DNA from: a virus
Virus record (IMG/VR): IMGVR_UViG_3300025325_000055
Coordinates: 1-41,844 of that record
Length of the DNA: 41,844 nt
Reading direction: 5' to 3' (one strand)
Shown here: positions 24,748 to 40,157 of the stretch, piece after piece
How positions within the stretch are numbered: the first letter of the stretch is position 1
Layout: the number at the start of each line of letters is the position of its first letter
The notes under the pieces: model-generated
The model's input: the letters and a program-made list of their open reading frames with translations, nothing else
The model's database searches: none
Told to the model about the DNA's origin: nothing
Translations under genes and position numbers: made by a program

Positions 24748-27714
24748 CTAGAGGCTAGAGAATGTGGCTCCGACCAACCCCCTGTGGTCAATTGGGTTCG
24801 CGCCCCAGAAGTGGCGGACCTTGTACGTGATGCGGTCGTTGGTGAACATCGCCCCGACCAGCTCCGTGCTCTGGTCCTGTGCGAAGATCTCGGGCTCCTC
24901 GCGGCCGTTCAGGAAGCCGACCTCGATCATCGGGATCTCGGTAGGACCTGCGGCCAGAACCCAGATGTTCTTCGGTGCTTGGGTGTCACCACCAGCGTTA
25001 CCACGATCGGCTGCTGTCTCCCAGTACGGGATGATGAGCAGCTCGAACATGCCACGGTGGATGTTCACCTCATGGCTTCCTGCGCCCACCTTCGTCTCGG
25101 AATTGAGCAGCGCGAGCCCCATGGCCCTGTTCGTCGGAGCGACGACCAGAGTCTTCGGAGAGCTCATGATGAAGCTGTGTGCGACAGCTCCAGAGTACGG
25201 CGCCGAAGCGCTGACCGCTGCCTGCTGGATCTGGAAGCGCATGAAGGCATCGGACAGGTTGGCATCGTTAAGGGCCACGATCGCGGACAGGATGCTGTGC
25301 GTGTCGGTCACGATGTTGCCCGGGGAGCGAGCAGCTGCCACATCGAACAGCCTGTCAGCGCCACCGCTGGTCAGGTAGGTGGACTCGGCAGGGTTGTCGA
25401 TGAGGAAGTCGAACACCGTGATGTAGATGGTACCGGCAGCCGCACGACCCAGCTTCTGGGGAAGCGCACGGAACTTGCCGATGTCATCGTTGATGATCAT
25501 CTCCAGGGTCAGGCTGGCCTGGCCGTGTGCCTTGACCGGCTGGTAGATGGCCTCCTCTTCCGGCAGCGCTGCACCGGTGAGGTCGGCGTAGGTGATGTCT
25601 TGGTTGGACGCACCCACACCACTCTCACGCTTCAGCAGGTAGAACTCGCCGAGGCGCTCCCTCTTCTGCTCACGCAGGTCGGAGGTAGGCGCCACAGTTG
25701 CGATCTTGCGCCAGTCCTGGAGCATCGGGTAGCGGTACTCTATGAGAGCCCGGCGCGTGATGCTATCGCCGAGGATCTTGCCGAAGTCGGAGGTCTTCAT
25801 CGCCGTGGCCTCTACGACCCGATCCAAGCCGCGGTTGGACACGCCGGAGTCGTAGCGCCCAGCGGACTCGAGGACTTCGTATCCGGTCAGGTCGAAGACG
25901 TGCGATCCAGTGATGACGCAGAAGGCTTCCTTCAGCGAGCGGAAGGCCTTGACGCCATCGACGTCCTCGCCCGCCAGAAGCCCGTCCATGGCCTTGACGT
26001 AGCGATCCTGTGGGGCGTCTGCCGCAGCAGCCCACGGAACTGTGGAAGGTGGCTGGGCCACCATCACGGCCGCCAGAGCAGCCTGCTGTGCGGTCACCTC
26101 TTCCTCGAGAGCGACTCGCTCGAAGATCTTGCCAGCCCAGCGGGCACGGATCATGTTCGCGATCGGCTCTGGGAGGCGACTCGCAGACAGGATCTCGTCC
26201 AGAGCGCGTGCGGACTGCTCGACAGCCCGCTCCTCTTGGATAGTTCGGAGAGACTCAGTGAGTTGCTGGATGCTCTCCGCAGAGGCAGCCTCAACTACTG
26301 GTGCCGGATCAGCAGCCGGTGCCGGACTTGGGTCCGGTGGCGCCGGTGCCGGGTCGGGAGCAGGTGCTGGGTCAGGTACTGGATCCGCTACCGGATCCGG
26401 GCTTGGGTCCCCTGCCGAGCTCGCGGCCGCCTCGCCGCCTGGTGCGAAGTGCGAGGCAAGAGCTTCTCTCACCTCAGGGCGCTCCGCGACAGCAGCTATG
26501 AACTCTTCAGGGGAAGCATTTTCTAGAGACATTAGAGCTTCCACCTCCTTGGTGTTTTTGTCCGAGGCGACCACTCGGTCTATTGAGCCGCCGGCGCTAG
26601 CCTCGGTGATAGCGTCAACGGAGTGGACCCTAACTAATTCGGAGATCTCTCGTACAAGGACGCCATCGATATACTTCGGCGAGTGCCGAGCACTCACGTT
26701 AACCGACAGCTGTACGAGATCCGGCTTGCCACGTGTGTGTGCTTCACGGACTATATCCGCTACTGGACCCTCAAGAAGGTGCATCTTGCCCTTCAGAGAG
26801 CCCCCACCCATCCCGTTCGGTACCCAGTAGACACCTTCGTACCAACCTACAATGTCCCTGACGGATCGCTCCGGTCGCTCTGCCATCTCCGTCTTGGTCG
26901 GGTGGTCGGCAAAGGCCCTGACCCCCTCGAACATCCTGGTGTTGCGCTCCAGCGTGTCCGGGCGCCAGTAGTAGCGGTTCTTGCTGCTACCGGACTGGAT
27001 AATGGTTGCCAAGTAGACGTTGGGCTCGGAGGGGAAGGCCTCTTCGATGATACCCATCGCCTCGGAGACAAAGGTGACTCCCTCGTCTGTCTCAACAGGA
27101 GCAGACTCATCTACGTGCTCATAAGGACAAGTGCCGTCCTCACATTCTCCGTGTCGATGATCCTCGGCTATACCCCCACGAGCAGCCTCGTGAGTCTTAC
27201 CTTGGCTCATCATCCCACGCAGGTGATTGCGAATCTGCGTGGCTTTGGCAGAGGAGATCTTGCCGCCACCCTTGAGCTTGATCTGATTCACCCGGGAGAG
27301 GGCCGACAGAAGATGCGGCATATCCACCTTGCCCTTGGCATCCTTGTAGGGCAGGTGTCGAAGACTACGTGGAGTTGTCTTTCCGTCCTTGTCCTTCTTG
27401 CCGCCGGGCTCGACAAAGGCAAAGCAGCTGTCAGGAAGGTTGTTGATCTCCTCGGCGCTCCACTCTGCCTCGACGATTACATCCGAAGAGCCGGTGCCAT
27501 TCCCATTGCTAGAGCTAATTGTCCCGATTGCAGATTGAAGGAGATCCGTTGCCTCTTCGGTCTTGCCCTCCTTGACAGCGATGAAGGCACTGCCAATGAT
27601 CTTCAGCGCCTCCTCCTCAACATCTTGGTTCAGAGCATCGGTAAGAAGCGCAGAAGCATAGTCGGTGTCGCCACTTCTTAGGCTGGTCAGAACGGACTCT
27701 AGTACGTCGCGCAT
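24748..27714 (-). CDS. Fused prohead protease, scaffold and major capsid protein
   Basis: This 988-residue polyprotein begins at ATG 27714 behind GGAGA. Residues 1-70 are helical. Residues 92-168 match the DUF6582-like pattern (SLRHLPYKDAKGKVD, LSALSRVNQIKL, AKATQIRNHLRGM). About 230-385 is a serine protease of the prohead type (FADHPTKTEMAERPERSV with candidate His271, and LVQLSVNVSA with candidate Ser337). About 435-475 is a Pro-Asp-Ala linker, 478-555 a coiled-coil scaffold, and about 560-988 a capsid domain resembling Mu gpT/HK97-fold proteins (RYPMLQDWRKIATV, then GQASLTLEMIINDDIGKF quoted as LTLEMIINDDIGKF). Self-cleavage should release the capsid subunit. The third catalytic residue is not identified. 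Confidence 0.8.
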   Translation of the reverse strand: MRDVLESVLTSLRSGDTDYASALLTDALNQDVEEEALKIIGSAFIAVKEGKTEEATDLLQSAIGTISSSNGNGTGSSDVIVEAEWSAEEINNLPDSCFAFVEPGGKKDKDGKTTPRSLRHLPYKDAKGKVDMPHLLSALSRVNQIKLKGGGKISSAKATQIRNHLRGMMSQGKTHEAARGGIAEDHRHGECEDGTCPYEHVDESAPVETDEGVTFVSEAMGIIEEAFPSEPNVYLATIIQSGSSKNRYYWRPDTLERNTRMFEGVRAFADHPTKTEMAERPERSVRDIVGWYEGVYWVPNGMGGGSLKGKMHLLEGPVADIVREAHTRGKPDLVQLSVNVSARHSPKYIDGVLVREISELVRVHSVDAITEASAGGSIDRVVASDKNTKEVEALMSLENASPEEFIAAVAERPEVREALASHFAPGGEAAASSAGDPSPDPVADPVPDPAPAPDPAPAPPDPSPAPAADPAPVVEAASAESIQQLTESLRTIQEERAVEQSARALDEILSASRLPEPIANMIRARWAGKIFERVALEEEVTAQQAALAAVMVAQPPSTVPWAAAADAPQDRYVKAMDGLLAGEDVDGVKAFRSLKEAFCVITGSHVFDLTGYEVLESAGRYDSGVSNRGLDRVVEATAMKTSDFGKILGDSITRRALIEYRYPMLQDWRKIATVAPTSDLREQKRERLGEFYLLKRESGVGASNQDITYADLTGAALPEEEAIYQPVKAHGQASLTLEMIINDDIGKFRALPQKLGRAAAGTIYITVFDFLIDNPAESTYLTSGGADRLFDVAAARSPGNIVTDTHSILSAIVALNDANLSDAFMRFQIQQAAVSASAPYSGAVAHSFIMSSPKTLVVAPTNRAMGLALLNSETKVGAGSHEVNIHRGMFELLIIPYWETAADRGNAGGDTQAPKNIWVLAAGPTEIPMIEVGFLNGREEPEIFAQDQSTELVGAMFTNDRITYKVRHFWGANPIDHRGLVGATFSSL

Positions 27715-27775: not shown

Positions 27776-28741
27776 TTACTGCTTGCGCAGAGTGCGTAGG
27801 AGGCCTGTATGGGTCATGGAGCGGGACAGAGTACGGCCGGTTCTACGGTCTACCGCGTACCACTCGCTGCCCCTGCGGACAATGACTTCCCTTGTGTCGG
27901 CGCCGGAGAGCGGGACAACTAAGAAAGGAAACTTGGCGCTCTTCATGATCTCTGCCAACGTGGCCGGTCCAACCGCCAGCCGCGCCTCCATGTCTTCTAT
28001 CCCGACCCTCTCCTCAGTCTGTCCTATCCTCTCCACCAGCAGCTTCTCATCAGAGCTCGCCAAGACAATGCTGTCGATGGTGATAGGAACCGGATCCAGC
28101 CGGCTCACTGGACTAGCAGCTTCGGGATCAAGATAGGCCAAGGTCATGTGCGGGGTGAACCCATGCTCTTTGGAGATAGGGAAGCCGGCGAGCTCCAGAT
28201 CCTCCACTAGGGACTGGCGAAACTCTTCTAGGCGAGGAGCATCGACAGAGGCGTAGAGCACATCCTTGCCATCACTAGTAGGACTTCCCGTAAAGCGGCC
28301 AATGCCGCCAACAGTGCCCTCAAGGGGTCCCCCGTCTTGGCAGGCTCTGCGCATGCAGTCTCCCACCTGTTCCCGATCCAGAGCTTCTGCATCAGGGAAG
28401 AAACCCAAGGTGAGATGGAGCTCCTCAGGCGCTTCTCCCCCCTCAACAGCCAGTTGCTTGGCAACATCCTCAGGTGGGTACCAAGCGATCATCGCTCCCT
28501 TGCCATTGTAGGCTTCCTTGGTCCCAGAGGCAGCCTCGAAGCTACCACCGTGCTCTTTACAGTGGCTACGGGCTGCAGCCTCGGACCAAGAGTCAGTGGG
28601 ATAGCGATAGGCTTGGATCTTGGAGCCTCCCTTGCCAAAACCATAGATTCGATGCGGCCGCGTCTTGTTGCTTCGAGCGAAGCGCTGAAACGACGAGGGA
28701 TCCTCGAGTCTACATGCGTGCTCGTTGGGCATAGGAGACAT
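27776..28741 (-). CDS. Two-histidine phosphoesterase-domain protein in the head module
   Basis: This 321-residue protein has three parts. Residues about 28-72 form a short basic domain (RIYGFGKGGSKIQAYRY, SWSEAAARSHCKEHGGSF) that I know from the ends of phage head proteins. Residues about 82-245 are a 2H phosphoesterase/LigT-like domain with both HxTx motifs, HLTL at 109-112 and HMTL at 198-201, spaced normally. The third part (about 250-321) is small and basic. 2H enzymes cut or ligate 2'-5' linked RNA or cyclic nucleotides, and some phages use them against host defence (Acb1). The substrate here is unknown, and packaging inside the head is possible. Confidence 0.75.
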   Translation of the reverse strand: MSPMPNEHACRLEDPSSFQRFARSNKTRPHRIYGFGKGGSKIQAYRYPTDSWSEAAARSHCKEHGGSFEAASGTKEAYNGKGAMIAWYPPEDVAKQLAVEGGEAPEELHLTLGFFPDAEALDREQVGDCMRRACQDGGPLEGTVGGIGRFTGSPTSDGKDVLYASVDAPRLEEFRQSLVEDLELAGFPISKEHGFTPHMTLAYLDPEAASPVSRLDPVPITIDSIVLASSDEKLLVERIGQTEERVGIEDMEARLAVGPATLAEIMKSAKFPFLVVPLSGADTREVIVRRGSEWYAVDRRTGRTLSRSMTHTGLLRTLRKQ

Positions 28742-28782: not shown

Positions 28783-30102
28783 TTACTGCCGTCGGCCGCG
28801 GCGTATCGGTGTAGGCTCTGGCCCCTGTCCGGGCTGCCAGAGCTTGACTGGAGCAGCCTCCACGCCAAGGCCCTTGGCCAGCTCCTGCAGAAAGGATCTC
28901 CAGTAGGTAGTGATTACAGCGCGGACGTCGAACTTGGTGCCGAACTTGACAGCATCGATAGACAGACGCCTAGCCTTCTTCTCGTCGTGGAGCTCGTCGT
29001 AGGCCGTACACAGAGCATCAAGAAGTCCGGGCTGGTGGGTGACATGACCACAACTTTCGCAGGCCGAGTCCGAGCCCAACGGGTTGGCGAGGTACCACTG
29101 GGTATTCGTTGGCACAGCCACAGGTGCCAAGGGCGGTACTAGCCAGCCTACACCGACGTTCTCCGTCTGGGCCGTAGCCGCGTTGGCCACCACGGGAATG
29201 CCAGATGCTTGGGCCTCAATCAGAGGAACGTTGAATCCCTCGCCGGCGGACGGTGCAAAGTAGACATCCATCGCGTTGTAGGCCATCGCCATCTGTTGAT
29301 CAGAGATCCCCATCCTATCCATGTACGGATCCAGCACGATAACGTACTTGGCAAAATCGAGACCGTACATATCGCAGAGGGCGAAGACGTCAGCTGATTC
29401 GGGACCAACGTAGGGAAGAGCGTGCAGATACAGCCTAGCATCGGGGTGGATCTTAACAAACTCAGAGAAGGCTTTGATCGCCTCTGGGAAGCCCTTCCTT
29501 ACCACGGGGGAGTTCTGGGTGTTGGCTGCTACCATACCCACCAAGAAGCACTCCTCTGGGAAGCCAATCATCTTCTTGAACTGCTTCTTGTTCCCCAGCG
29601 GTCGGTAGATGGAGGTGTCTATACAGTGGGGGATGTAGGTGATGGGAATCTGGGGCAGCCTCTCCTCCATCGTCTTCTTCCCAAACTGGGACATGGCGAT
29701 GATCTGGTGGGCATTGACGAGGCGGGCTTGGGTCTGCCGGGAGAGTGGGTAGCCATCAATGGGCACGATAGGCACCCACTTGAAGTTACCACCGCCATTG
29801 GCAGAGGCGAATACCTGAGGCATTGGCCAAACATCCATCAGGCTGATGCAGACGTCGAATCCCATAGCTCTCATGTGAGCCGCGATCAGAGCATCTGATC
29901 CCTTCTCCACACCAAAGCCAGAGATGTGATCGACACCGTTGAAGTTGATTGTTCCCCACTCAAACCCGCCACTGCAAGCAACAGCTATACGCTCAACCTC
30001 GGGTAGTTGTTGGAGAGCCTTGACAGTGTAGTTCGTCTGCCGGCCGTAGCCAGACGCTCTCCACATGGGCGCCGCAGACAGCCAGAGTACCTTGAGTCCC
30101 AT
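28783..30102 (-). CDS. GT4-like glycosyltransferase
   Basis: I start at ATG 30102, which shares a base with the TGA of the preceding gene and follows GAGGTGG. The 439-residue protein has a GT-B fold pattern: an N-terminal half with SAAPMWRASGYGRQTNY (a glycine-rich acceptor loop) and IIAMSQFGKKTMEE, and a C-terminal half with FYMD-like regions and SAGEGFNVPLIEAQASGIPVVA (quoted as GEGFNVPLIEAQASGIPV), the nucleotide-sugar binding motif of GT4 enzymes, including the E-x7-E pair. A CxxC pair (CESCGH) sits in a late insertion. It is the last gene of the sugar cassette and probably adds a hexose-type sugar to a growing chain. Confidence 0.8.
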   Translation of the reverse strand: MGLKVLWLSAAPMWRASGYGRQTNYTVKALQQLPEVERIAVACSGGFEWGTINFNGVDHISGFGVEKGSDALIAAHMRAMGFDVCISLMDVWPMPQVFASANGGGNFKWVPIVPIDGYPLSRQTQARLVNAHQIIAMSQFGKKTMEERLPQIPITYIPHCIDTSIYRPLGNKKQFKKMIGFPEECFLVGMVAANTQNSPVVRKGFPEAIKAFSEFVKIHPDARLYLHALPYVGPESADVFALCDMYGLDFAKYVIVLDPYMDRMGISDQQMAMAYNAMDVYFAPSAGEGFNVPLIEAQASGIPVVANAATAQTENVGVGWLVPPLAPVAVPTNTQWYLANPLGSDSACESCGHVTHQPGLLDALCTAYDELHDEKKARRLSIDAVKFGTKFDVRAVITTYWRSFLQELAKGLGVEAAPVKLWQPGQGPEPTPIRRGRRQ

Positions 30103-31664
30103 CACACCACCTCTACGATCTTGTCACAGATATAGTCGACGTCGGGGATGTCCATACGGGTAGACATTGGCAGAAGAAGACCATTGTAGTGCCAAGCAGC
30201 CGCATTAGGAAGCTCCCGCTCGTCACCTTGACCAAACTGCCAGTTGAGAGGAGGCCACACCGGCCGAGTTTCGACACCGGCCATAGCTAGAGCATCCTCT
30301 ACTCTACCTCGGGAGGCTGAATCAGGGAAACGCACCAAGGCAAGGCTGGCAGAGCCATTGTCTATCTTTTGCACGACAGCTGTGTTCCACAGACGCTGCC
30401 GGTAGCGCTCCCAGATCCGCTCTCTCTTGAGTACCCTATCCGCGAGGCTGTCCAGCTGGCTGAGACCCATAGCTGCTTGGACATCTGTCATTCGCCCGTT
30501 CAGACCGGCCGTGAAGGCCCAGTAACGTTGATGCGCAACAGACTCTCCATGCTGGCGCAGGCTCTGCACCAAAGAGACGAGACTCTCCGGACCAATAACA
30601 GCCCCACCCTCGATCGTGGTAATGGTCTTGGCTGCATGGAAAGAGAGGGCAGCACGCAAGGACCCTCCCTTATCTTCTGGGCGAAGACAAAGATCTACCG
30701 CCTGAGCAGCATCCTCCCAAACAAATCTACCGCTTTCGTAGTGCTTCTGAAGCCAGCCCCGATCAACATGGGCACCACCAATATGAACGGCTAGCAGACC
30801 AGCATCCTCGTAGCGAGTAAGCAGGAAGTCAGCCTGCTCCCTGTCCATCAGGGCAGTGTCCAGATCCACATCGACATAGAGCGGCTCCAGCCCAAGGAAG
30901 AGAAGTGGCGCCGCGGTAGCTGCGAAGCTCAGCGCAGGGAGCACCACGCGCTTGCATCCTTGCATCTTGGCTACCTGTGCCATGAGGAGGAGGGCCATCG
31001 TCCCAGAGGAAACGCAGACTGCTCGGTTCTCAAACATGTGCTGGAGCCTATCCTCCAGCTCTCTCACCTTGCGACCTTGGGTGAGCCAACCAGAGGAGAG
31101 AACCTTGATGCCCGCCGCCGTGCCCTCACCCCAGTCTGGCTCGCACCACGCTATGTGCTTGCTAGGGCTGTCCTCCTCACGCAGGAAGCAAGACATCGAG
31201 AGAACATCCCGGTACTCTCCTACAGAAGTGATCTCCTCGTCCGTGAATACCCCCTCAACGGTAAACCCCAGCTTATCGTAGAGAGCAATGGCAGCATGGT
31301 TCTCACTGTGAACCGAGAGCCAAATCTTGTGCAGACTGAGAGAGCGGGCATGCTCCATCATCCTCCGGCACAGATCCTCTGCCCAGCCTTGCCGACGCGA
31401 GTTGGGACGCACGGCAACACCCAGCCTGGCTACGTGCTTCTTCGTCTCCCCGGGGAAGTACGTGAGGTGACCGAAAGCAAGAACACTGCGGTGGTCGTCG
31501 GTGAGCAGAAAGCAATCGCCAGGCCCTCCCCCGAGACGATCGTCCTCAAGGAAGGAGAAATGTTCTCGGTCCACAGCAGAGAGACTGTTTCTGAACTCCT
31601 TGAGCTGGGACAGCCACTGATGCCTGCAAACGGAGAAAGAGCAGACAGTTATCTCGGGTGCCAC
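30102..31664 (-). CDS. Fusion of GNAT acetyltransferase and DegT-type sugar aminotransferase
   Basis: This 520-residue protein starts at GTG 31664 behind GGAGGTGA. Residues 1-165 are a GNAT N-acetyltransferase (LGVAVRPNSRRQGWAEDL is the acetyl-CoA loop; NHAAIALYDKLGFTVEGV the following helix-strand). Residues about 185-520 are a PLP-dependent DegT/DnrJ/EryC1/StrS aminotransferase: SSGWLTQGRKVRELE opening, CVSSGTMALLL, VWEDAAQAVD with Asp318, and SFHAAKTITTIEGG with the PLP lysine at 346. The KTITTxEGG motif resembles perosamine synthetases. One polypeptide could therefore aminate a 4-keto sugar and acylate the new amine. It overlaps the genes on both sides. Confidence 0.85.
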   Translation of the reverse strand: MAPEITVCSFSVCRHQWLSQLKEFRNSLSAVDREHFSFLEDDRLGGGPGDCFLLTDDHRSVLAFGHLTYFPGETKKHVARLGVAVRPNSRRQGWAEDLCRRMMEHARSLSLHKIWLSVHSENHAAIALYDKLGFTVEGVFTDEEITSVGEYRDVLSMSCFLREEDSPSKHIAWCEPDWGEGTAAGIKVLSSGWLTQGRKVRELEDRLQHMFENRAVCVSSGTMALLLMAQVAKMQGCKRVVLPALSFAATAAPLLFLGLEPLYVDVDLDTALMDREQADFLLTRYEDAGLLAVHIGGAHVDRGWLQKHYESGRFVWEDAAQAVDLCLRPEDKGGSLRAALSFHAAKTITTIEGGAVIGPESLVSLVQSLRQHGESVAHQRYWAFTAGLNGRMTDVQAAMGLSQLDSLADRVLKRERIWERYRQRLWNTAVVQKIDNGSASLALVRFPDSASRGRVEDALAMAGVETRPVWPPLNWQFGQGDERELPNAAAWHYNGLLLPMSTRMDIPDVDYICDKIVEVV

Positions 31665-32392
31665 ACTATCACCTCCGGATCTACCCAGATCATATGGCCG
31701 CGGGCGGTAGCCATCTTACACAAGCCCACGATCGCCTCGTCTGATGTGAACCTGACACCTTCCCGAAGCGTGGCTGCTGGTATGAGCAGACAAGTGCCGG
31801 CAGAGTCTACTTCGAAGGGATTATCGAGGGAGACGCAGGGGTGATAGGGAGGCTCCCAGTTGAAGCAGCCAGGACCATACGTGCCGCCCTGCCTGTTGAC
31901 TTGCTCATACCCTTGGCGGAAGGCCCAGACATCGTAGAAGGTATCTGAGTCATGGACGAGAACGAGCGGGGCAGTGATGTCGCCATCTGAGAATATATCC
32001 TTGGTCTCCAGAAGATTCTGCAGGAGCTCAGATCCCCAGATCAGGTCAGACTCCAGCCAGAGGAAGTAGTCGCATGGTCCGTCGAGAAGCGCCATGTTGA
32101 TAGCCCTGTTCGCTACCACCGAGACCCGGGCCAGCCTCTCCGGTGTGATCTCCGCATAGCCAGAGGGGGCACGGGGAGCATCGAACTTGGCTACCTCCAC
32201 ATACGGCAACTCCGCAGCCATCTGCTGGAGACGCTGGAAGGTGTCATCGTCGCTGTTGCCCTCAACTAGACAGAAGCGCAGGTACTCGGCAGGGTAGTCT
32301 AGAGCCTTGGCCTGCTCGTAGTAGCGCCACAAGTCTCCACGCTTGGATGAGTTCCAGAACATGCTGCCGATGCAGACAGTGGGTGGTCTCAA
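31649..32392 (-). CDS. GT2/Anp1-like (GT-A fold) glycosyltransferase
   Basis: The frame starts at TTG 32392, which overlaps the previous TGA and is preceded by GGGAGGT at good spacing. The 247-residue protein begins with a strand-helix pattern (VCIGSMFWNSSKR, LRFCLVEGNSDDDTF) and carries LWLESDLIW near residue 112. This acidic turn takes the place of the DxD metal site in GT-A enzymes of the Anp1/GT62 or GT2 type. A region with HPCVSLDNPFEVDSAGTCLL follows, then a final IWVDPEVIVWHPR. It probably transfers one sugar in the cassette; donor and acceptor cannot be read from sequence. Confidence 0.7.
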   Translation of the reverse strand: MRPPTVCIGSMFWNSSKRGDLWRYYEQAKALDYPAEYLRFCLVEGNSDDDTFQRLQQMAAELPYVEVAKFDAPRAPSGYAEITPERLARVSVVANRAINMALLDGPCDYFLWLESDLIWGSELLQNLLETKDIFSDGDITAPLVLVHDSDTFYDVWAFRQGYEQVNRQGGTYGPGCFNWEPPYHPCVSLDNPFEVDSAGTCLLIPAATLREGVRFTSDEAIVGLCKMATARGHMIWVDPEVIVWHPR

Positions 32393-33453
32393 GTCAGATA
32401 CCTCCCGAAGAATCTACGCCAATCCTCTGTTACTACCTCACGGCCGAAGATCTCTGTGGCTCTCTTTCTGCCAGCTTCACCTATCCTCCGAGCAAGATCC
32501 TGATCATCAAGGAGCCGGCTAATGTCTGATTCGAGCTCACCCATGTCATCAGAGCAGAAGCCGTTGACACCATCCTCGATCAGCTCTGGAAGTTCGTAGG
32601 TGCCCAGTCCTCTCCATCCACCACGCTGCGGACCCACAGCAACTACCGGTGTACCGGTCATCCATGCTTCACGAAAAGTACCGGTATACGGCGCCGGCTT
32701 GGCATTGGCATCGAAGTAGACTCGGGCCTTCCGATAGTCGCGGCGGAGACGGTTGTACGTCCTTTGGCCTACAGGATAGAAACGACCATCACCATCATTG
32801 CCTGGACCAACAACGCGTACGGTGAATCTATCTGCAAGCTGAAGCACTTCCTCACACTGTCGATTGTCTCTGTTGATGCAGCGGCTTACGACAAGGACGT
32901 GCTTACCTGTTCCATCCCAACCCTTCCACTCGTTTGGATCCGTAGACCAGCGGATTACGGCATCTGTACCTATGTTGTGTGGGATGGTTCTCTCGGTCAC
33001 AGAACTTCGTACTACCTTCAACCCGCGCTGTCGGAAAAACCGCAGGTTGTAGTCCTGCCAAGGCATGCCTTCTCCGGAGCGCCAGATGATGAGCGGCCGC
33101 TTACTGTTCTCGGTCATGCTCGGCCAGTAGCGCACAACCCAGTTGCTGACTAGCAGAACAACAACGACGTCGAAGCCTGCGAAGAAGTCTGGTGGCAGGG
33201 CCAGCGGGGCACCATACTCGTCTAGACCTTTGTCCTGCAGGTACTCCTCTCGCGGCTCCCTGAGCCCTGGTATCCTCCGCATGATGTCTTGGAGGTAGGA
33301 AAACTCCTCTGGCTCCGCGATCTCTGGGCGGTGGATCAGCCAAGGCTGCCCGAGGCGCTTGAAGGGAGAGGCTACCTCGAAACCAAGATCCGTAAACAGG
33401 CGGTAATCGTCGTAGTGGGCAGCGGGGTTGCCGTAGAGCATTAGGAGCTTCAT
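32389..33453 (-). CDS. GT-B glycosyltransferase, paralogue B
   Basis: I choose ATG 33453, which overlaps the TGA of the methyltransferase gene (ATGA), over an upstream GTG at 33468. The 354-residue protein has a GT-B layout with C-terminal motifs PYTGTFREAWMTGTPVVAV, YELPELIEDGVNGFCSDD and a final RRIGEAGRKRATEIFGRE. This is the usual donor-binding half of GT4-type enzymes. The same blocks occur in the protein at 34052-35107 (also xxDAVIRxxxDPxxWxGW), so the two arose by duplication and then diverged, mainly in the N-terminal acceptor half. They may add successive sugars. Confidence 0.75.
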   Translation of the reverse strand: MKLLMLYGNPAAHYDDYRLFTDLGFEVASPFKRLGQPWLIHRPEIAEPEEFSYLQDIMRRIPGLREPREEYLQDKGLDEYGAPLALPPDFFAGFDVVVVLLVSNWVVRYWPSMTENSKRPLIIWRSGEGMPWQDYNLRFFRQRGLKVVRSSVTERTIPHNIGTDAVIRWSTDPNEWKGWDGTGKHVLVVSRCINRDNRQCEEVLQLADRFTVRVVGPGNDGDGRFYPVGQRTYNRLRRDYRKARVYFDANAKPAPYTGTFREAWMTGTPVVAVGPQRGGWRGLGTYELPELIEDGVNGFCSDDMGELESDISRLLDDQDLARRIGEAGRKRATEIFGREVVTEDWRRFFGRYLT

Positions 33454-34055
33454 TTGGCTGCCAACCACAGGTAGTCATCGTGGTGGGGAGTACCCTCGTC
33501 AAAGGCATAGCGAACCACCCGTGTACGATAGCCGTACTCTTCAAGCAGGGCTCTAACAGCTGGTACATTCCCGTGAGTCTCTATGAGCAGCTCGGGGTGG
33601 TGCGTAGCGAGAAGGGATCGAGCACCTTGCAGAATGCGCAGCTCCGCTCCTTCTGTATCCATCTTCACAAACGACACGTGACCATCGAAGGAAAGAACAT
33701 CTAGCGGAACAGCGGCCGTGTAGAAATTGCCGATGGGAGCCCCTCTCTCCACTCCTGGCAACACCGTGTCACTGGTCAATCCTGGACCATATAGGTACGT
33801 GTACAACCTCAGATAGCCATACTCAGACGAGAGGGCAAAGTTGCAGCGAATCACGTTGGCCTTCTGAGATGTGTTCTTGGTCAGCTGAACGAAGGCATCG
33901 GGATTGGGCTCAAACGCCCATACCTGCCGGTGAGTCCGAGCGAGACCAAGAGTGTAGATGCCCAAGCAGGCACCGATGTCCAGAGCAATGTCCCCCTTCT
34001 CAGGAAGCTCGGGAGCACACCAAGGCTCGTAGGGAATAACCTCATCGTAGCTCAT
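33450..34055 (-). CDS. FkbM-family SAM-dependent methyltransferase
   Basis: The ATG at 34055 overlaps the TGA of the previous gene (ATGA), giving 201 residues; the extension to 34085 lies inside the neighbour. Motif I, ALDIGACLGIYTLGLA, is followed by VWAFEPNPDAF (the acidic end of strand 2) and by VSFVKMDTEGAELRILQGA, the hallmark of FkbM enzymes. These usually methylate a sugar hydroxyl. The protein ends soon after the SAM fold, shorter than many relatives. In this cassette it may cap a glycan with an O-methyl group, as seen in O-antigens. Coupled with both flanking glycosyltransferase genes. Confidence 0.85.
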   Translation of the reverse strand: MSYDEVIPYEPWCAPELPEKGDIALDIGACLGIYTLGLARTHRQVWAFEPNPDAFVQLTKNTSQKANVIRCNFALSSEYGYLRLYTYLYGPGLTSDTVLPGVERGAPIGNFYTAAVPLDVLSFDGHVSFVKMDTEGAELRILQGARSLLATHHPELLIETHGNVPAVRALLEEYGYRTRVVRYAFDEGTPHHDDYLWLAAK

Positions 34056-35107
34056 GGCGCAAAGTGCTCGAAGAACTTCTGCCACTGCTGCTGGATCTTC
34101 TCCCTGCCGAAGACCTCAATGGCTCTTGCCCTACCAGCAGCACCAACCTTGGCAGCCAAGTCTGGGTCCTCTAGGAGACGTACAGCCGCACCTCGAAGCT
34201 TATTGAGATCATCAGACCAGAAGCCAGTGATGCCATCCTCAATCAACGTGTGTAGTTCATAGGTGTCCATACCTGGGCGATTTCCGTACTTAGGACCGAG
34301 GGCAACTACTGGTGTACCGGTCATCCATGCCTCGCGGAAGGTGCCAGTGTAGGGAGAGGGCTGTGTGTTGACCGCAAAGAAGACTCGAGCTCTACGATAG
34401 AGACGCTGCAGCTCTTCGAAAGAGACCGCGCCGCGGTTGTAGGCTAGACCTTCGTTGCCAGGACCATAGAGCACTCTGGGTAGGCCGTTGGTGGCCAGCT
34501 GGAACGCGTGCTGATTACATTCGACCGGACGGCCGGCCATCTTCGAACAGACACAGAGAACATGGCAGTCCTCGCCCGTCCAGCCATGCCAGTCTTCCGG
34601 ATCGTTGTAGCAGCGGATTACAGCATCGGCGCCTAGGTTAGCGCGACCGCCAATACCCAGCTCTGTGGGAGAGCAACGTACTATGAGAAGACCCTCGTCG
34701 CGTAGCGGCTGCAGCATCTTCTCGACAAAGTCTGCACTCTGCCCGTTGCAGCGCCAGACCACCTTCTTGCCTCGCATTGCCTTCCAATTGCCAGTAAGCC
34801 AATCGACAACCCCCAAGATGATAACCATGTCGAAGGGCTCGAAGACCTGTCTTGGCAAGGCATTCTGAGGATGGCGACGAGCCAAAGCTACGACATCTGC
34901 ATGACCGTTGTCCGGGAGCGGGGGACGGTATCCACCCTCTACCTCGGTCCACCAGCTCGGTCCCCAGCTCGGATGGTCCATGGGCTTTGGCCTCTCAGGA
35001 TCGCGGTAGACACCAAAGGGAGAGCAGACATCGACACCGATCTCCCTGAAGAGTTTCAGGTCCTCGTACTCGTTGATCCAGTGGCCGCCCAAGTAGAGGA
35101 TCTTCAT
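34052..35107 (-). CDS. GT-B glycosyltransferase, paralogue A
   Basis: This 351-residue protein starts at ATG 35107, overlapping the stop of the dehydratase gene (ATGA). The N-terminus is a strand followed by a loop (MKILYLGGHWINEYEDLKLF, quoted as KILYLGGHWINEYEDL). The C-terminal donor-binding region has PYTGTFREAWMTGTPVVAL, YELHTLIEDGITGFWSDD and ARAIEVFGREKIQQQW. It shares these blocks with the protein at 32389-33453. GT4-type donor binding fits a GDP- or UDP-sugar. Being directly coupled to the GDP-mannose dehydratase, it is a good candidate to use the deoxy sugar made by the cassette. Confidence 0.75.
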   Translation of the reverse strand: MKILYLGGHWINEYEDLKLFREIGVDVCSPFGVYRDPERPKPMDHPSWGPSWWTEVEGGYRPPLPDNGHADVVALARRHPQNALPRQVFEPFDMVIILGVVDWLTGNWKAMRGKKVVWRCNGQSADFVEKMLQPLRDEGLLIVRCSPTELGIGGRANLGADAVIRCYNDPEDWHGWTGEDCHVLCVCSKMAGRPVECNQHAFQLATNGLPRVLYGPGNEGLAYNRGAVSFEELQRLYRRARVFFAVNTQPSPYTGTFREAWMTGTPVVALGPKYGNRPGMDTYELHTLIEDGITGFWSDDLNKLRGAAVRLLEDPDLAAKVGAAGRARAIEVFGREKIQQQWQKFFEHFAP

Positions 35108-36129
35108 ACCGGCAAGTACTCGCCGCGGAGCTCGGCCTCTGCTATCTGCTGCTCGCTTCTTCCATGAAGACGATCTAGGTCAGCAGAGATCATGTGCCAG
35201 ACAAGCTCGGGTAGGAAAACCTCGGTCTGCCAGTCTAACTCAGAGGACAGGAGCGCAGGATCGGCTATTAGAGTGTCCGAGGGACGCATCAGTGATGACT
35301 CGGTCTTGACATGATCCCTGTAGTCCTTACCCACCAAGTTGAATGCTATTCGAAGCAGGTCCGCAATGGTATGACCGTGGCCAGTTCCAATAACCACATC
35401 CCGAGGTTCATCCGGCCAAAGAAGGAGACACATAGCCCGGGCGAAGTCGCCAGCGTAGCCCCAGTCTCGTACAGCTGACAGATCACCCAGCACCAGCTCT
35501 CCCTTGCCCTCCTTAGCAACACGAGCCGCGGCCATAGTTATCTTCCTCGTGACATAGCCAGAGGGTCTCCACACACTCTCGTGGTTGAAGAGGATTCCGT
35601 TCACACAGTAAAGGCCGTAGCGCTCTCGGTAGATGCGAACCATGTCGTGGCAAGTGGCCTTAATCAGACCATAGAAACTGCTGGGAACCCGTGGTGTCCG
35701 CTCTGATTGTGGCGGTGGCTCACTGCCGAAGATTGCTGCCGAGGAGGCATAGAACAGCCTTGCCTTGGGATTAACCTCCCGCATCCATTCCAGAACCAGG
35801 AGGATGCTGTCAACCGAGGACTGGAGAGAGAAGATGGGATGGCTCTCGGCCGCAGCAGGGGAACTGACAGCAGCTAAGGCGTAGATCTCGTCCGGGTTCA
35901 CCCCTACCAATGTGCGACGCAGCGAGATAGGATCTGCTACATCCGTAGGAAGAATGTGTAGGTTGGGAGCGCGTATGGAGGTTAGACTAGAGTCTTCGAG
36001 CGGATGTACGGTCCCCCATACCTCATACCCCTGCCCGTGCAGGTGATTTGCGAGGTACGGCCCGTCTTGACCTCCCGCTCCCGTTATCAGAGCGCAACGC
36101 TGGGACGACTGTGTCCTCTTCCCCCTCAA
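35104..36129 (-). CDS. gmd: GDP-mannose 4,6-dehydratase-like SDR enzyme
   Basis: The enzyme should convert GDP-D-mannose to GDP-4-keto-6-deoxymannose with bound NADP. The best start is TTG 36129, seven bases after AAGGAG, giving 341 residues; the frame is open to 36159. Visible are the nucleotide loop TGAGGQDG (residues 16-23), the FYASSAAIFG strand carrying the catalytic Ser/Thr, QSE with the catalytic glutamate, and YGLIK with Tyr153 and Lys157. GDLSAVRDWGYAGDFARAM is a strong GMD-type signature. The first 107 bases overlap the 3' end of the portal gene in another frame. No fucose synthase or rhamnose reductase gene follows. Confidence 0.85.
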   Translation of the reverse strand: MRGKRTQSSQRCALITGAGGQDGPYLANHLHGQGYEVWGTVHPLEDSSLTSIRAPNLHILPTDVADPISLRRTLVGVNPDEIYALAAVSSPAAAESHPIFSLQSSVDSILLVLEWMREVNPKARLFYASSAAIFGSEPPPQSERTPRVPSSFYGLIKATCHDMVRIYRERYGLYCVNGILFNHESVWRPSGYVTRKITMAAARVAKEGKGELVLGDLSAVRDWGYAGDFARAMCLLLWPDEPRDVVIGTGHGHTIADLLRIAFNLVGKDYRDHVKTESSLMRPSDTLIADPALLSSELDWQTEVFLPELVWHMISADLDRLHGRSEQQIAEAELRGEYLPV

Positions 36130-37429
36130 ATTCCATCTCCTTCTTGTCTGGTATCTCAAAGCCTAGGGAAGAGAGATAAATGTCCATGATGGCCCGAACT
36201 TCTTCTTTGCTGTAGATCTGTGCGACCTCTAGACCGGTGAAGAACTGACCGACTCGTGCCAACGCTCCTCCTGTGCGTTGGACATCCCTGATCGCAATAC
36301 GCGGCTTGATCACCTTGAACGATGTGTCTACATCCGAAGACAGCCGACCGCTAATGATCGCTTGGTCGATGACGAACTGGAAGACATCCGTAACGATGTT
36401 GCTGATCTCATCGGCCCGGCTGGAGAAGGTCTTGTAGAGAAGATCGATCTGCTCTGCTAGAGCAGTACGAGCTGCGGCGATGATACCTGTGGCCGTTGGT
36501 GGGATGCCGAAGCCGAACAGGATGTAGCCAAGCAAGTTAGCACCCTCAGCAGAGGCATCATCTGCCTGCGTATCAGGACGGACAGAGTCCCATTTGACCG
36601 CATCGTTATGGGCTCGTATGCTGCCCGGACCGAGCGGGTTCTTCTGCTGCGCTTGCAGGAACTTGACGATCTCAGCCTCGCCGGCGCCGGTGATCGTAAC
36701 ATCCCAGTTGTAGGTATTCCTCAGCTCAGCGTTGCGAGCCCGGGCATACATGAAGCGATCCAGCTGATCGATGAAGTCGTTGAGGGCAAACAGGTCAGAG
36801 ACACCACGAGTGCCACCGCTGACTCTGTTCACAGCCCAGAAGAAGACATCGCCAATGCGGCGCAGGAAGGTGGGACTAGCTGGATCCCTGTCCAGAGCGA
36901 TGACCCGCATCGTCACGTCATCCACGTACGGACCACCGCGGACGACAATGCTGCGCATCTTGTTGTTGTGGAACGGCTCGGCCATCGTGCTCTTAATGAT
37001 CTGCGGGTCGATCTTGCCCATGAGAGTGTCGCCCCGGCTGACCACAATGGGCATCACCAGCTCTCCGTCCTGGGAGAGATCTAGGATGTACTGTGGTAGG
37101 TGTCGCTTCCAGTCGTTCCAGGGGTCCTTCCAGTGTCGATCTATGACATCCTGCACACCTGGATCCTTGGCTCGGATCATGAAGCCTACATCTCCCCCCA
37201 TGATGTAGTCCCGCATGAGTTCGAGGAGACGGTGACCGACCGCGGTACGCAGATAGTTGAAGCGACCGATCTTGGACTGCATGATCTGATCAAGCGGGGG
37301 AAGATCCTGCTTGTTCTGCATGCCGTACGGGCGCCAGGCTGCCTCGTCGCTGTCCATACCAACAACTGCCGGTAGAGCCTCTCGGATATCTTCCGGCGCC
37401 TCTGCTGTGGACGAGCGTAGACGTGGCAT
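36023..37429 (-). CDS. Portal protein
   Basis: This 468-residue protein forms the dodecameric ring through which DNA enters the head. It has the expected alpha-rich wing and clip regions (GRFNYLRTAVGHRLLELM, VQDVIDRHWKDPWNDWKRHLPQ quoted as WKDPWNDWKRHLPQ) and a later stem and crown part (LGYILFGFGIPPTATGIIAAARTAL, quoted as GYILFGFGIPPTATG, then LLYKTFSSRADEI). The GxPPxxxG turn is typical of portals. Start ATG 37429 lacks a strong ribosome site but lies four bases from the preceding stop. The last about 35 residues are Ser/Arg-rich and overlap the dehydratase gene, so this tail may be recent. Confidence 0.8.
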   Translation of the reverse strand: MPRLRSSTAEAPEDIREALPAVVGMDSDEAAWRPYGMQNKQDLPPLDQIMQSKIGRFNYLRTAVGHRLLELMRDYIMGGDVGFMIRAKDPGVQDVIDRHWKDPWNDWKRHLPQYILDLSQDGELVMPIVVSRGDTLMGKIDPQIIKSTMAEPFHNNKMRSIVVRGGPYVDDVTMRVIALDRDPASPTFLRRIGDVFFWAVNRVSGGTRGVSDLFALNDFIDQLDRFMYARARNAELRNTYNWDVTITGAGEAEIVKFLQAQQKNPLGPGSIRAHNDAVKWDSVRPDTQADDASAEGANLLGYILFGFGIPPTATGIIAAARTALAEQIDLLYKTFSSRADEISNIVTDVFQFVIDQAIISGRLSSDVDTSFKVIKPRIAIRDVQRTGGALARVGQFFTGLEVAQIYSKEEVRAIMDIYLSSLGFEIPDKKEMEFEGEEDTVVPALRSDNGSGRSRRAVPRKSPARAGV

Positions 37430-38265: not shown

Positions 38266-38292
38266 AATAGACTAAAACTGGGCAGACGTCAA
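38264..38292 (-). promoter_or_regulatory. Candidate promoter at the end of the terminase gene
   Basis: On the minus strand TTGACG (38292-38287) and TATTGT (38269-38264) are 17 bases apart, the ideal spacing for a sigma70-type promoter; five and four of six bases match consensus. The minus-35 overlaps the terminase stop codon. Transcription would start near 38257 and give a leader of about 38 bases before the next gene. Confidence 0.5.
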
Positions 38293-40157
38293 CCCACTAA
38301 GAAGTGTCTCCTAATCCGCTCGAAGTCGCGGCCGCGGACATCTATGAGCTGGCGCCGGCTACATGCCCCGCAAACCGTACCCTCGCCACGTCTATAGAGA
38401 TTGTCTTCCGTTGCACCACACAGAGCGCAGGCAGGACCCTGCACTGCAGGAGCCAAGTAGATCTCCTTACCCGTTCCGTCCTCACCTTCCTTCTCCATTA
38501 GCCAAGCACCCTCGCTGGGATCGTAGACCATGTCTATGGGGGAGGCTCCGTAGGCTGCGGCCTTGAGCATGAAGTCGAGAGCGTCGAGGCAGTCATCGTG
38601 GTCGGTGGTGCGATCGCCGCGGAAGGTGGACCATTCGTAGAAGAGCGGGTCGAGAGAGGATACCGGCACGAGAAGGCCGTCATCCTGCTTGGTAGCAGCC
38701 AGACGGACACGGTGCATAGTGAAGTAGGTCGACATGTGGACAAAGCGTTGGGTCTTGCCGCCACTGGTGATGACCGGGTTGATGTTGAAGAACGTCTTCT
38801 CCTGCTGCTTCTTGACGAGGAAGGACTGGGCTGCGTTGGCTTCCATGTTGATCAGTGTTGGCTGCCAGCGCCGGGCGTGCATGGATACCATTTCCCAGAG
38901 ACGATCAGGATCAGCCCTCTCCCTGATCATGTCTACCACGTAGACGATGTTCTTGTCAGGATCCTTGAGACCGATACAGATGACAGCGAAGTCAGCCGTA
39001 GCAGAGTTGGACCAGCTCGGGTCCACCCCGAAGTAGACCAAGAACTTCGTAGCCGGCAGCAGAGGCTGGAGCGGATCGTAGCCCGGGATCTCATGGGTGT
39101 CGATGAGGTTCTCGTTGAGCCAAGCCAGCTGCAAGAAGGCCAGCGTGGTGTCGACCGGGTCGTTCTGCATCTGCTCGGCAAACTCGAGTGGCTTAGCCTC
39201 ACGCCAAGCAAGAAGGAACGGAACAGAGAAGCGCTCTGGCCATGCCGACTGCCACTCGTCCTTCTCATCCTTGTACAGAACAGGGAGGAGTAGGTAGCTG
39301 AACTCGTCTTTGTGCCGCTTCGACCACGTCTCCCTGAGTTCGGCATAGAGATCCTTGAAGTGGCGGCGAGTACCGACCACGCACATCTGACCAAGTGAGG
39401 TGTCCTCTACCGGCTCTTCTCCCTCTTCGCCCTGTCCCTCCGGCTCTACTGTTGGCTCCAGCTCCGTGAAGAACCAGGTGGACAGGTGACCGCGCTGAAT
39501 GACGGTAGCGCTGTTCTCCGCATCGACTACGTCGTCGGCGACAACCAGATCAGCCCTACGGCCGGCCACGGCACCACCGGTACCAATGGCGAAGAGAGTG
39601 AGACCTGTAGCAAACTCGGACCTGCCAGAGACAACCTTCTCTGTGTCGTTCCAGCGCTGTGTGCGGGGGGCCGGGATCAGGTTTCCGAAGATTTTGATGT
39701 ACGACTCTCTTGCCATGATCTGCACTACGCTATCCATCATCTCCTTGGCTAGCGACTCGTTCTTGCAGGCGATGATGACACGTATGTCACGGTTACAGCC
39801 AATGCGCCAAGCGACATAGGCCACGGTTATCAGGGTGCTCTTACCACCACCACGGAAAACGTTGACAACAAGCTTTCGCTTCTCCTTGAGCGCGGCGATG
39901 ATCCGATGGTGGACAGGCTGTAGCTTGAGCTTGCGGCCACGTTGGTCCCTGATGACCTCATCAATGAAGGCTTCGAAGCCATCCTCGCTGCGGATGAGAC
40001 GATAGAGATCACCATCCTGCGACGCACCTTCGGCCAGCCCCGTGAGGGGGGCCAAGGCTTGGGAAACCTCTGGTCTGACTTGAGTCACTACGCTGTAACC
40101 TCTGGGTCTAGTATCGGTGAGCCCGTCCTTCGGGGGCAAAATTACCAGCAAAGTCAC
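38289..40157 (-). CDS. terL: Large terminase subunit with C-terminal zinc ribbon
   Basis: This 622-residue DNA-packaging motor has an ATPase with Walker A FRGGGKSTL (101-109) and Walker B LVVADD (204-209), and an RNase H-like nuclease with Asp379 in FGVDPSW, Glu439 in INMEAN and DHDDCLDALDF near 519-529. An acidic insert (about 237-254, GQGEEGEEPVEDTS) lies between strands of the ATPase. After the nuclease there is an added zinc ribbon with cysteines at 577, 580, 596 and 599. The GTG at 40157 is one possible start; a TTG six bases later and a GTG at residue 24 are alternatives. No small terminase gene was identified in the window. Confidence 0.9.
   Translation of the reverse strand: MTLLVILPPKDGLTDTRPRGYSVVTQVRPEVSQALAPLTGLAEGASQDGDLYRLIRSEDGFEAFIDEVIRDQRGRKLKLQPVHHRIIAALKEKRKLVVNVFRGGGKSTLITVAYVAWRIGCNRDIRVIIACKNESLAKEMMDSVVQIMARESYIKIFGNLIPAPRTQRWNDTEKVVSGRSEFATGLTLFAIGTGGAVAGRRADLVVADDVVDAENSATVIQRGHLSTWFFTELEPTVEPEGQGEEGEEPVEDTSLGQMCVVGTRRHFKDLYAELRETWSKRHKDEFSYLLLPVLYKDEKDEWQSAWPERFSVPFLLAWREAKPLEFAEQMQNDPVDTTLAFLQLAWLNENLIDTHEIPGYDPLQPLLPATKFLVYFGVDPSWSNSATADFAVICIGLKDPDKNIVYVVDMIRERADPDRLWEMVSMHARRWQPTLINMEANAAQSFLVKKQQEKTFFNINPVITSGGKTQRFVHMSTYFTMHRVRLAATKQDDGLLVPVSSLDPLFYEWSTFRGDRTTDHDDCLDALDFMLKAAAYGASPIDMVYDPSEGAWLMEKEGEDGTGKEIYLAPAVQGPACALCGATEDNLYRRGEGTVCGACSRRQLIDVRGRDFERIRRHFLVG

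Follow-up and report, generated by a model that had tools for sequence, protein, structure and literature searches.

The viral sequence IMGVR_UViG_3300025325_000055 (positions 1 to 41,844; the whole 41,844-base stretch is hereafter called the window) carries a seven-gene sugar cassette between its portal and capsid genes. The GDP-mannose 4,6-dehydratase (GMD)-like short-chain dehydrogenase/reductase (SDR) of this cassette has lost the catalytic glutamate of GMD, one of its glycosyltransferases (GTs) belongs to a family that recurs beside major capsid protein (MCP) genes, and its sugar genes vary between related phages. We propose that this late-operon cassette serves to build an acetamido sugar and to decorate the phage's own head with it in the form of a short glycan, and we give this chain as a whole a probability of roughly 35%.

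Gene content of the cassette

The cassette (28783-36129) consists of seven uninterrupted open reading frames (ORFs), listed here in the direction of transcription.

35104..36129, minus strand: GMD-family SDR, 341 aa, TTG start (PF16363, 2e-68)
34052..35107, minus strand: GT1, GT-B glycosyltransferase, 351 aa (PF13524, 7e-7)
33450..34055, minus strand: FkbM-family methyltransferase, 201 aa counted from the ATG that overlaps GT1 (PF05050, 3e-16; TIGR01444 above cutoff)
32389..33453, minus strand: GT2, GT-B glycosyltransferase, 354 aa, paralog of GT1 (PF13524, 3e-6)
31649..32392, minus strand: 247-aa protein, no family or PDB match
30102..31664, minus strand: GNAT-DegT fusion (PF00583, 2e-15; PF01041, 9e-61)
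28783..30105, minus strand: GT3, GT-B glycosyltransferase (PF13692, 1e-10; phrog_2170, 2e-27)

These genes are intact and, as the original prediction from the DNA letters had stated, overlapping and translationally coupled. Five of the six internal junctions overlap by 4 nt with ATGA, TTGA or GTGA (GMD/GT1, GT1/FkbM, FkbM/GT2, GT2/247-aa gene and GNAT-DegT/GT3), and the junction between the 247-aa gene and GNAT-DegT overlaps by 16 nt. The family assignments of that prediction were also borne out for the GMD-like SDR, the paralogs GT1 and GT2 (44% identical), FkbM, the GNAT-DegT fusion with its KTITTIEGG motif and GT3. They were not for the 247-aa protein, which had been proposed to be GT-A-like: it matched nothing in Pfam, NCBIfam or the PDB, matched one PHROG of unknown function only weakly, and gave an unusable single-sequence AlphaFold model with a predicted local distance difference test (pLDDT) score of 44. 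The viral-contig search with this gene matched only a near-identical phage, which is described below.

A GMD-like enzyme without the dehydration glutamate

The SDR has the extended fold of the GMD family, and the top 31 PDB matches of its model (pLDDT 92.9) are GMDs. The dinucleotide motif and the GMD-specific motifs NGILFNHES and RDWG are preserved. The residues for C4 oxidation are present as S130, Y153 and K157 (YxxxK), and the substrate-orienting arginine is kept as R188, the counterpart of R190 of BceN; Tyr, Lys and Arg are invariant across a 30-row alignment. The enzyme thus has the fold, NAD(P)-binding motif, Ser/Tyr/Lys residues and substrate Arg in common with GDP-mannose 4,6-dehydratases (1rpn, 1n7g, 2z1m and human GMDS), but it differs from them at three points. 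The catalytic Glu of the [ST]SE motif is replaced by Ala at position 132 (SSAAIFG in the alignment to 1rpn), the RR loop is absent, and the TIGR01472 score is 208.8 bits, below the equivalog cutoff of 415.

Glu occupies this position in 80 of the 80 viral relatives retrieved and in the GMD of a cousin phage at the same genomic site. According to a review of nucleotide-sugar dehydratases (PMC8987622), it is the one extra acid/base residue of GMD, whereas GalE-type epimerases lack such a residue, and the BceN study assigned it to the abstraction of the C5 proton (PMC3584063). PDB entry 6gpk is the human E157Q enzyme with GDP-Man bound. A single sequencing error is an unlikely cause of the replacement, because the surroundings have changed too (S131A, R187W, and SAAI where SSEM is expected). 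The missing RR loop, which provides cofactor and tetramer contacts (HPLEDSS stands where RR..S is expected), was rejected as a diagnostic of lost GMD activity because several other viral GMDs also lack it. Judged by its active-site residues, the SDR probably does not dehydrate; it could plausibly oxidise C4 and would not be expected to carry out 6-deoxygenation.

A pattern search retrieved further GMD-family proteins without this Glu, namely a Nocardioides clade (SSSAMFG) and four proteins from metagenome-assembled genomes (MAGs; SSSAIFG). No function was read from them, because none of their loci matched the DegT domain of the cassette and the window SDR forms a long branch in the tree. As a separate observation, SSSA[MF] in place of SSSE occurs in Nocardioides and a Nocardioidaceae MAG, which form one supported clade (loci L179, L188, L190, L193 and L194, and further L204, L207, L209, L213 and L214).

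In the GNAT-DegT fusion (aminotransferase-ACETYLTRANSFERASE), the GNAT domain spans approximately residues 30-160 and the DegT domain approximately residues 170-517. The lysine for pyridoxal phosphate (PLP) lies in KTITTIEGG and aligns with the Lys of 3bn1 and 3dr7. Among PDB entries the DegT domain ranks PerA first (3bn1, 4e-27, 98 bits), followed by DesI (94.5) and ArnB (92), and among NCBIfam models it ranks PseC first (160), followed by the LegC family and DesI (121 each) and ArnB (111), all below their equivalog cutoffs. The PerA, PseC, DesI and ArnB-type families are C4 aminotransferases, and the DegT domain looks like an aminotransferase of this type by sequence. The profile searches that had been suggested as a check on the aminotransferase agree with the original prediction as to the C4 type and the top PDB match, but not as to a clear kinship with GDP-sugar enzymes, since DesI and ArnB follow closely and PseC leads in NCBIfam. 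GDP is favoured as the nucleotide because the SDR is GMD-like.

The GNAT domain resembles several GNATs, with PseH among the matches. Compared with PerA, PseC, ArnB and PseH-like GNATs, the fusion has the DegT family, the PLP Lys motif and C4-type neighbours in the ranking in common; it differs in joining DegT to GNAT in one polypeptide and in scoring below every equivalog cutoff. Searches of phage and viral collections matched the fusion only in the near-identical phage, and 247 genomes of one bacterial phylum held no fused GNAT-DegT. One match among these genomes (L226) has GNAT and DegT as two adjacent genes with a sugar-transferase-like gene alongside.

The original prediction named GDP-perosamine as the simplest product. 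This is not supported, because GDP-perosamine is a 6-deoxy sugar that needs 4,6-dehydration by GMD, and the SDR has Ala in place of the dehydration Glu. We propose that the SDR would bind GDP-mannose and oxidise C4 via Ser/Tyr/Lys while leaving the C6 hydroxyl in place for want of the acid/base Glu. Amination of the resulting 4-keto group by the DegT domain and acetylation of the amine by the GNAT domain fused to it would give GDP-4-acetamido-4-deoxymannose, which is not a perosamine and, to our knowledge, is not known from any virus. That the sugar is a 4-N-acetylated amino sugar of some kind is, on balance, the favoured view. The 2-oxoglutarate from transamination could reoxidise the SDR cofactor, by analogy with Cj1427, a GDP-heptose C4-dehydrogenase of Campylobacter jejuni that recycles its cofactor with added 2-oxoglutarate (PMC10680097). 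Cj1427 may serve as a model of how a GDP-sugar is oxidised at C4 and not dehydrated, but its substrate is a heptose, and its likeness to the window SDR is an analogy.

Two other routes to a decorated virion have to be weighed here. In the first, which we regard as doubtful, the glycan would carry N-acetylated GDP-perosamine-derived sugar, either because the SDR dehydrates through another group or water or because a host GMD supplies GDP-4-keto-6-deoxymannose. The GMD fold and family of the SDR, PerA as the top PDB match and the intact GMD of the cousin phage at the same site agree with such a product, but Ala stands here in place of GMD's sole additional acid/base residue (PMC8987622), next to the changes S131A and R187W. 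It is also unlikely that the SDR is a GalE-type epimerase, a reductase or a decayed enzyme, with GNAT-DegT using a host 4-keto sugar, possibly UDP- or dTDP-linked. SSAA does resemble the [ST]xnYx3K pattern of epimerases (PMC8987622), the SDR forms a long branch, and PseC and PseH appear among the matches of the fusion; however, the SDR frame is intact, its ribosome-binding site and coupling are kept, and NGILFNHES and RDWG are preserved.

Capsid-gene synteny and the glycan acceptor

Evidence that the head may receive the glycan comes from the neighbours of GT3 homologs. Among the 59 viral contigs with enough sequence upstream of a gene of the GT3 family (phrog_2170), 52 have an HK97 major capsid homolog directly upstream, with a median of 237 nt between the matches. 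These contigs are not independent, because dereplication leaves 23, 16 or 8 lineages; the adjacency is retained in 16/23 lineages at 90% identity and in 9/16 at 70%. The capsid identity of the neighbour rests on locus L116, where the order is terminase, portal, protease, MCP, GT, second GT, head-tail adaptor and major tail protein.

Similar arrangements are found in named phages: MCP, GT, methyltransferase, GT2-family GT and neck in phiPsal1; MCP, hypothetical, GT, hypothetical and nucleotide-sugar epimerase in Mae-JY09; and portal, hypothetical, GT, hypothetical, methyltransferase and, further on, a head protein in S-CBS4. The gene sets of these phages have in common with the window a homologous GT3 by the MCP or portal gene and a methyltransferase, second GT or nucleotide-sugar epimerase nearby, but they are shorter and include no annotated pair of GMD and aminotransferase. 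GMD genes also recur in the head modules of unrelated phages, in the orders portal-protease-MCP-ORF-GMD-GT3 type (L003), MCP-GT3 type-GMD (L017) and terminase-portal-protease-GMD (L060). In L083 and L086, GT1-type and FkbM genes are grouped and a GT3-type gene is close by. Tetrasphaera phage TJE1 (L223, HQ225832), which has been isolated, has a further set of sugar-synthesis genes, in which a nucleotidyl transferase, a nucleotide kinase, an epimerase, a methyltransferase and a GT are annotated upstream of terL.

The main late genes of the window lie on the minus strand: terminase and portal, then the cassette, followed by a gene with a 2H-phosphoesterase domain, one for a 988-aa capsid-domain protein, and tail genes, among them that of a tape-measure protein.

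38289-40157, minus strand: terminase, in the late-gene run
36023..37429, minus strand: portal protein gene, upstream flank of the cassette (phrog_10963, 2.5e-16)
27776..28741, minus strand: 2H-phosphoesterase-domain protein, downstream flank, separating cassette from capsid gene (PF13563, 4e-12)
24748..27714, minus strand: 988-aa protein with a C-terminal Phage_capsid_4 domain, candidate glycan acceptor (PF25209, 8e-30; phrog_133, phrog_4523)

The predicted location between portal and capsid genes is thus confirmed by both flanks, with the addition of the 2H-phosphoesterase gene, which begins 41 nt after GT3 and has further PHROG matches to RNA-ligase and head-maturation proteins. At the other end, the GMD-like gene shares 107 nt with the 3' end of the portal gene, and its TTG start at 36129 is preceded by a strong Shine-Dalgarno sequence (AAGGAG, 7 nt spacing). 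Because the same 107 nt (36023-36129) encode, in two frames, the portal C-terminus and the N-terminal nucleotide-binding segment of the SDR, one of these two ends was probably shaped by insertion. On the plus strand, antisense to the gene of the capsid-domain protein, there is an open frame of 580 aa (24784-26526), most likely a by-product of codon use.

The acceptor could also lie on the host, in which case the cassette would modify surface glycans, either to exclude superinfection or to change the receptor. Such sugar enzymes are indeed common in bacterial surface polysaccharide clusters, the adjacent GNAT and DegT genes of L226 being an example. None of the seven cassette proteins has a clear membrane segment, however; their hydropathy peaks reach at most 1.98 and fall inside GT-B and DegT domains. 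The cassette would therefore encode no flippase, polyprenol-phosphate transferase or GtrA/GtrB-like protein, and family searches of its proteins likewise found no flippase and no polyprenol-linked or membrane GT family. It differs in this from a gtr-type serotype-conversion locus, with its membrane flippase and polyprenol-linked or membrane GT, and has the genetic linkage of GT and virion genes that marks phage virion glycosylation systems. With the head-operon position and the recurrent MCP adjacency of the GT3 family also against it, a role at the host surface is quite improbable.

Glycosylation of the phage DNA by these GTs is very improbable. Phage GTs elsewhere do glycosylate DNA (Pyle et al. 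2024, as cited in PMC12619734), and L083 has a DNA methylase gene close to a distant GT3 relative, but the sugar genes of the window are in the head operon, apart from the replication genes. No base-hypermodification enzyme was found among ten replication-region proteins of a near-identical 52.9-kb contig, in which not every ORF was scanned. Two replication-region proteins on a near-identical phage contig that extends beyond the left end of the window, an AAA-domain ATPase (L098:7089-8972) and a helicase (L098:12096-14684), contain intein or Hint plus LAGLIDADG domains.

The synteny, the lack of membrane segments and the absence of a base-hypermodification gene from the proteins scanned together favour a cytoplasmic, co-produced protein acceptor, that is, the head. 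The comparative synteny of GT3 with MCP genes, the head-module GMDs, the cousin phage site and a near-identical phage whose differences over 19 kb all fall inside the cassette support the virion decoration that was originally suggested, and the virion is probably the glycan target. In the proposed order of transfer, GT3 attaches the first sugar to a head protein, GT1 and GT2 lengthen the glycan, and FkbM O-methylates it.

A variable locus in the head operon

Two cousin contigs (L090 and L091) have a capsid protein 50% identical to that of the window; upstream of its gene, in the position of the window cassette, both contain a GMD that retains Glu, along with a GT3 ortholog (49-51%). L091 extends further and adds a C-methyltransferase (PF08484), another methyltransferase and two unassigned proteins; PF08484 is a family of NDP-keto-sugar pathways. 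GNAT-DegT, FkbM and GT1/GT2 had no match in the available sequence of these contigs, which begins inside the cassette. The site and GT3 are kept, and the tailoring genes are exchanged between the phages. Before the capsid gene of L091 lies a 135-aa ORF (L091:5805-6212), of which approximately the first 80 residues match the 2H-phosphoesterase-domain gene of the window.

In L087, a contig of the near-identical phage, 66 bases do not match the window. All of them fall within the contig's first 1,000 bases, in FkbM and the 5' portion of GT2, and the next 18 kb show no difference. The pattern suggests an exchange of alleles within the cassette, unless the assembly is chimeric near the end of the contig. 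A portal-based search for viral relatives returned none. Mae-JY22 has a related capsid protein, a MuF-type head morphogenesis gene upstream of it and no cassette, but it cannot be called the ancestral empty site because its gene order is too different.

A bolder and less likely reading of these comparisons makes the cassette a "capsid serotype" locus, a fixed position among the head genes where sugar genes would be exchanged and the GT kept, with a non-dehydrating GMD feeding the GNAT-aminotransferase to give GDP-4-acetamido-4-deoxymannose. Several points weigh against the proposed chain. The step without dehydration hangs on one active-site position, and the Glu-less GMD-family proteins elsewhere offer no functional precedent. 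The DegT ranking mixes GDP-, UDP- and dTDP-sugar enzymes. MCP adjacency occurs in only 2/8 GT3 lineages at 50% identity, and portal adjacency is unseen in the cousin contigs, which start within the cassette.

Phage virion glycosylation itself is known; a variable, serotype-like synthesis locus in a head operon would be a new form of it. In the mycobacteriophages Che8, Corndog and Myrna, phage-encoded GTs are thought to decorate capsid or tail proteins (Freeman et al. 2023, as cited in PMC12363180, PMC12619734 and PMC11256854). As far as these citing papers describe them, only GTs are mentioned there, whereas the window phage adds sugar-nucleotide enzymes. A tblastn search with GT3 at 1e-5 matched 10 of 50,697 phage records, no mycobacteriophage among them, and GT1 had no match in phage records; the other cassette GTs were not compared directly with Che8 gp110.

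The virions of phages are generally regarded as bare protein. Should head operons carry modules for sugar synthesis that can be exchanged, phages could vary the particle surface as bacteria vary O-antigens, which would affect recognition and particle properties. The Glu-less GMD would offer a natural test of how a dehydratase active site may be rebuilt for a simpler reaction. Because the MCP-GT and MCP-GMD-GT arrangements recur, cultured phages, Mae-JY09 and S-CBS4 among them, lend themselves to tests of the idea.

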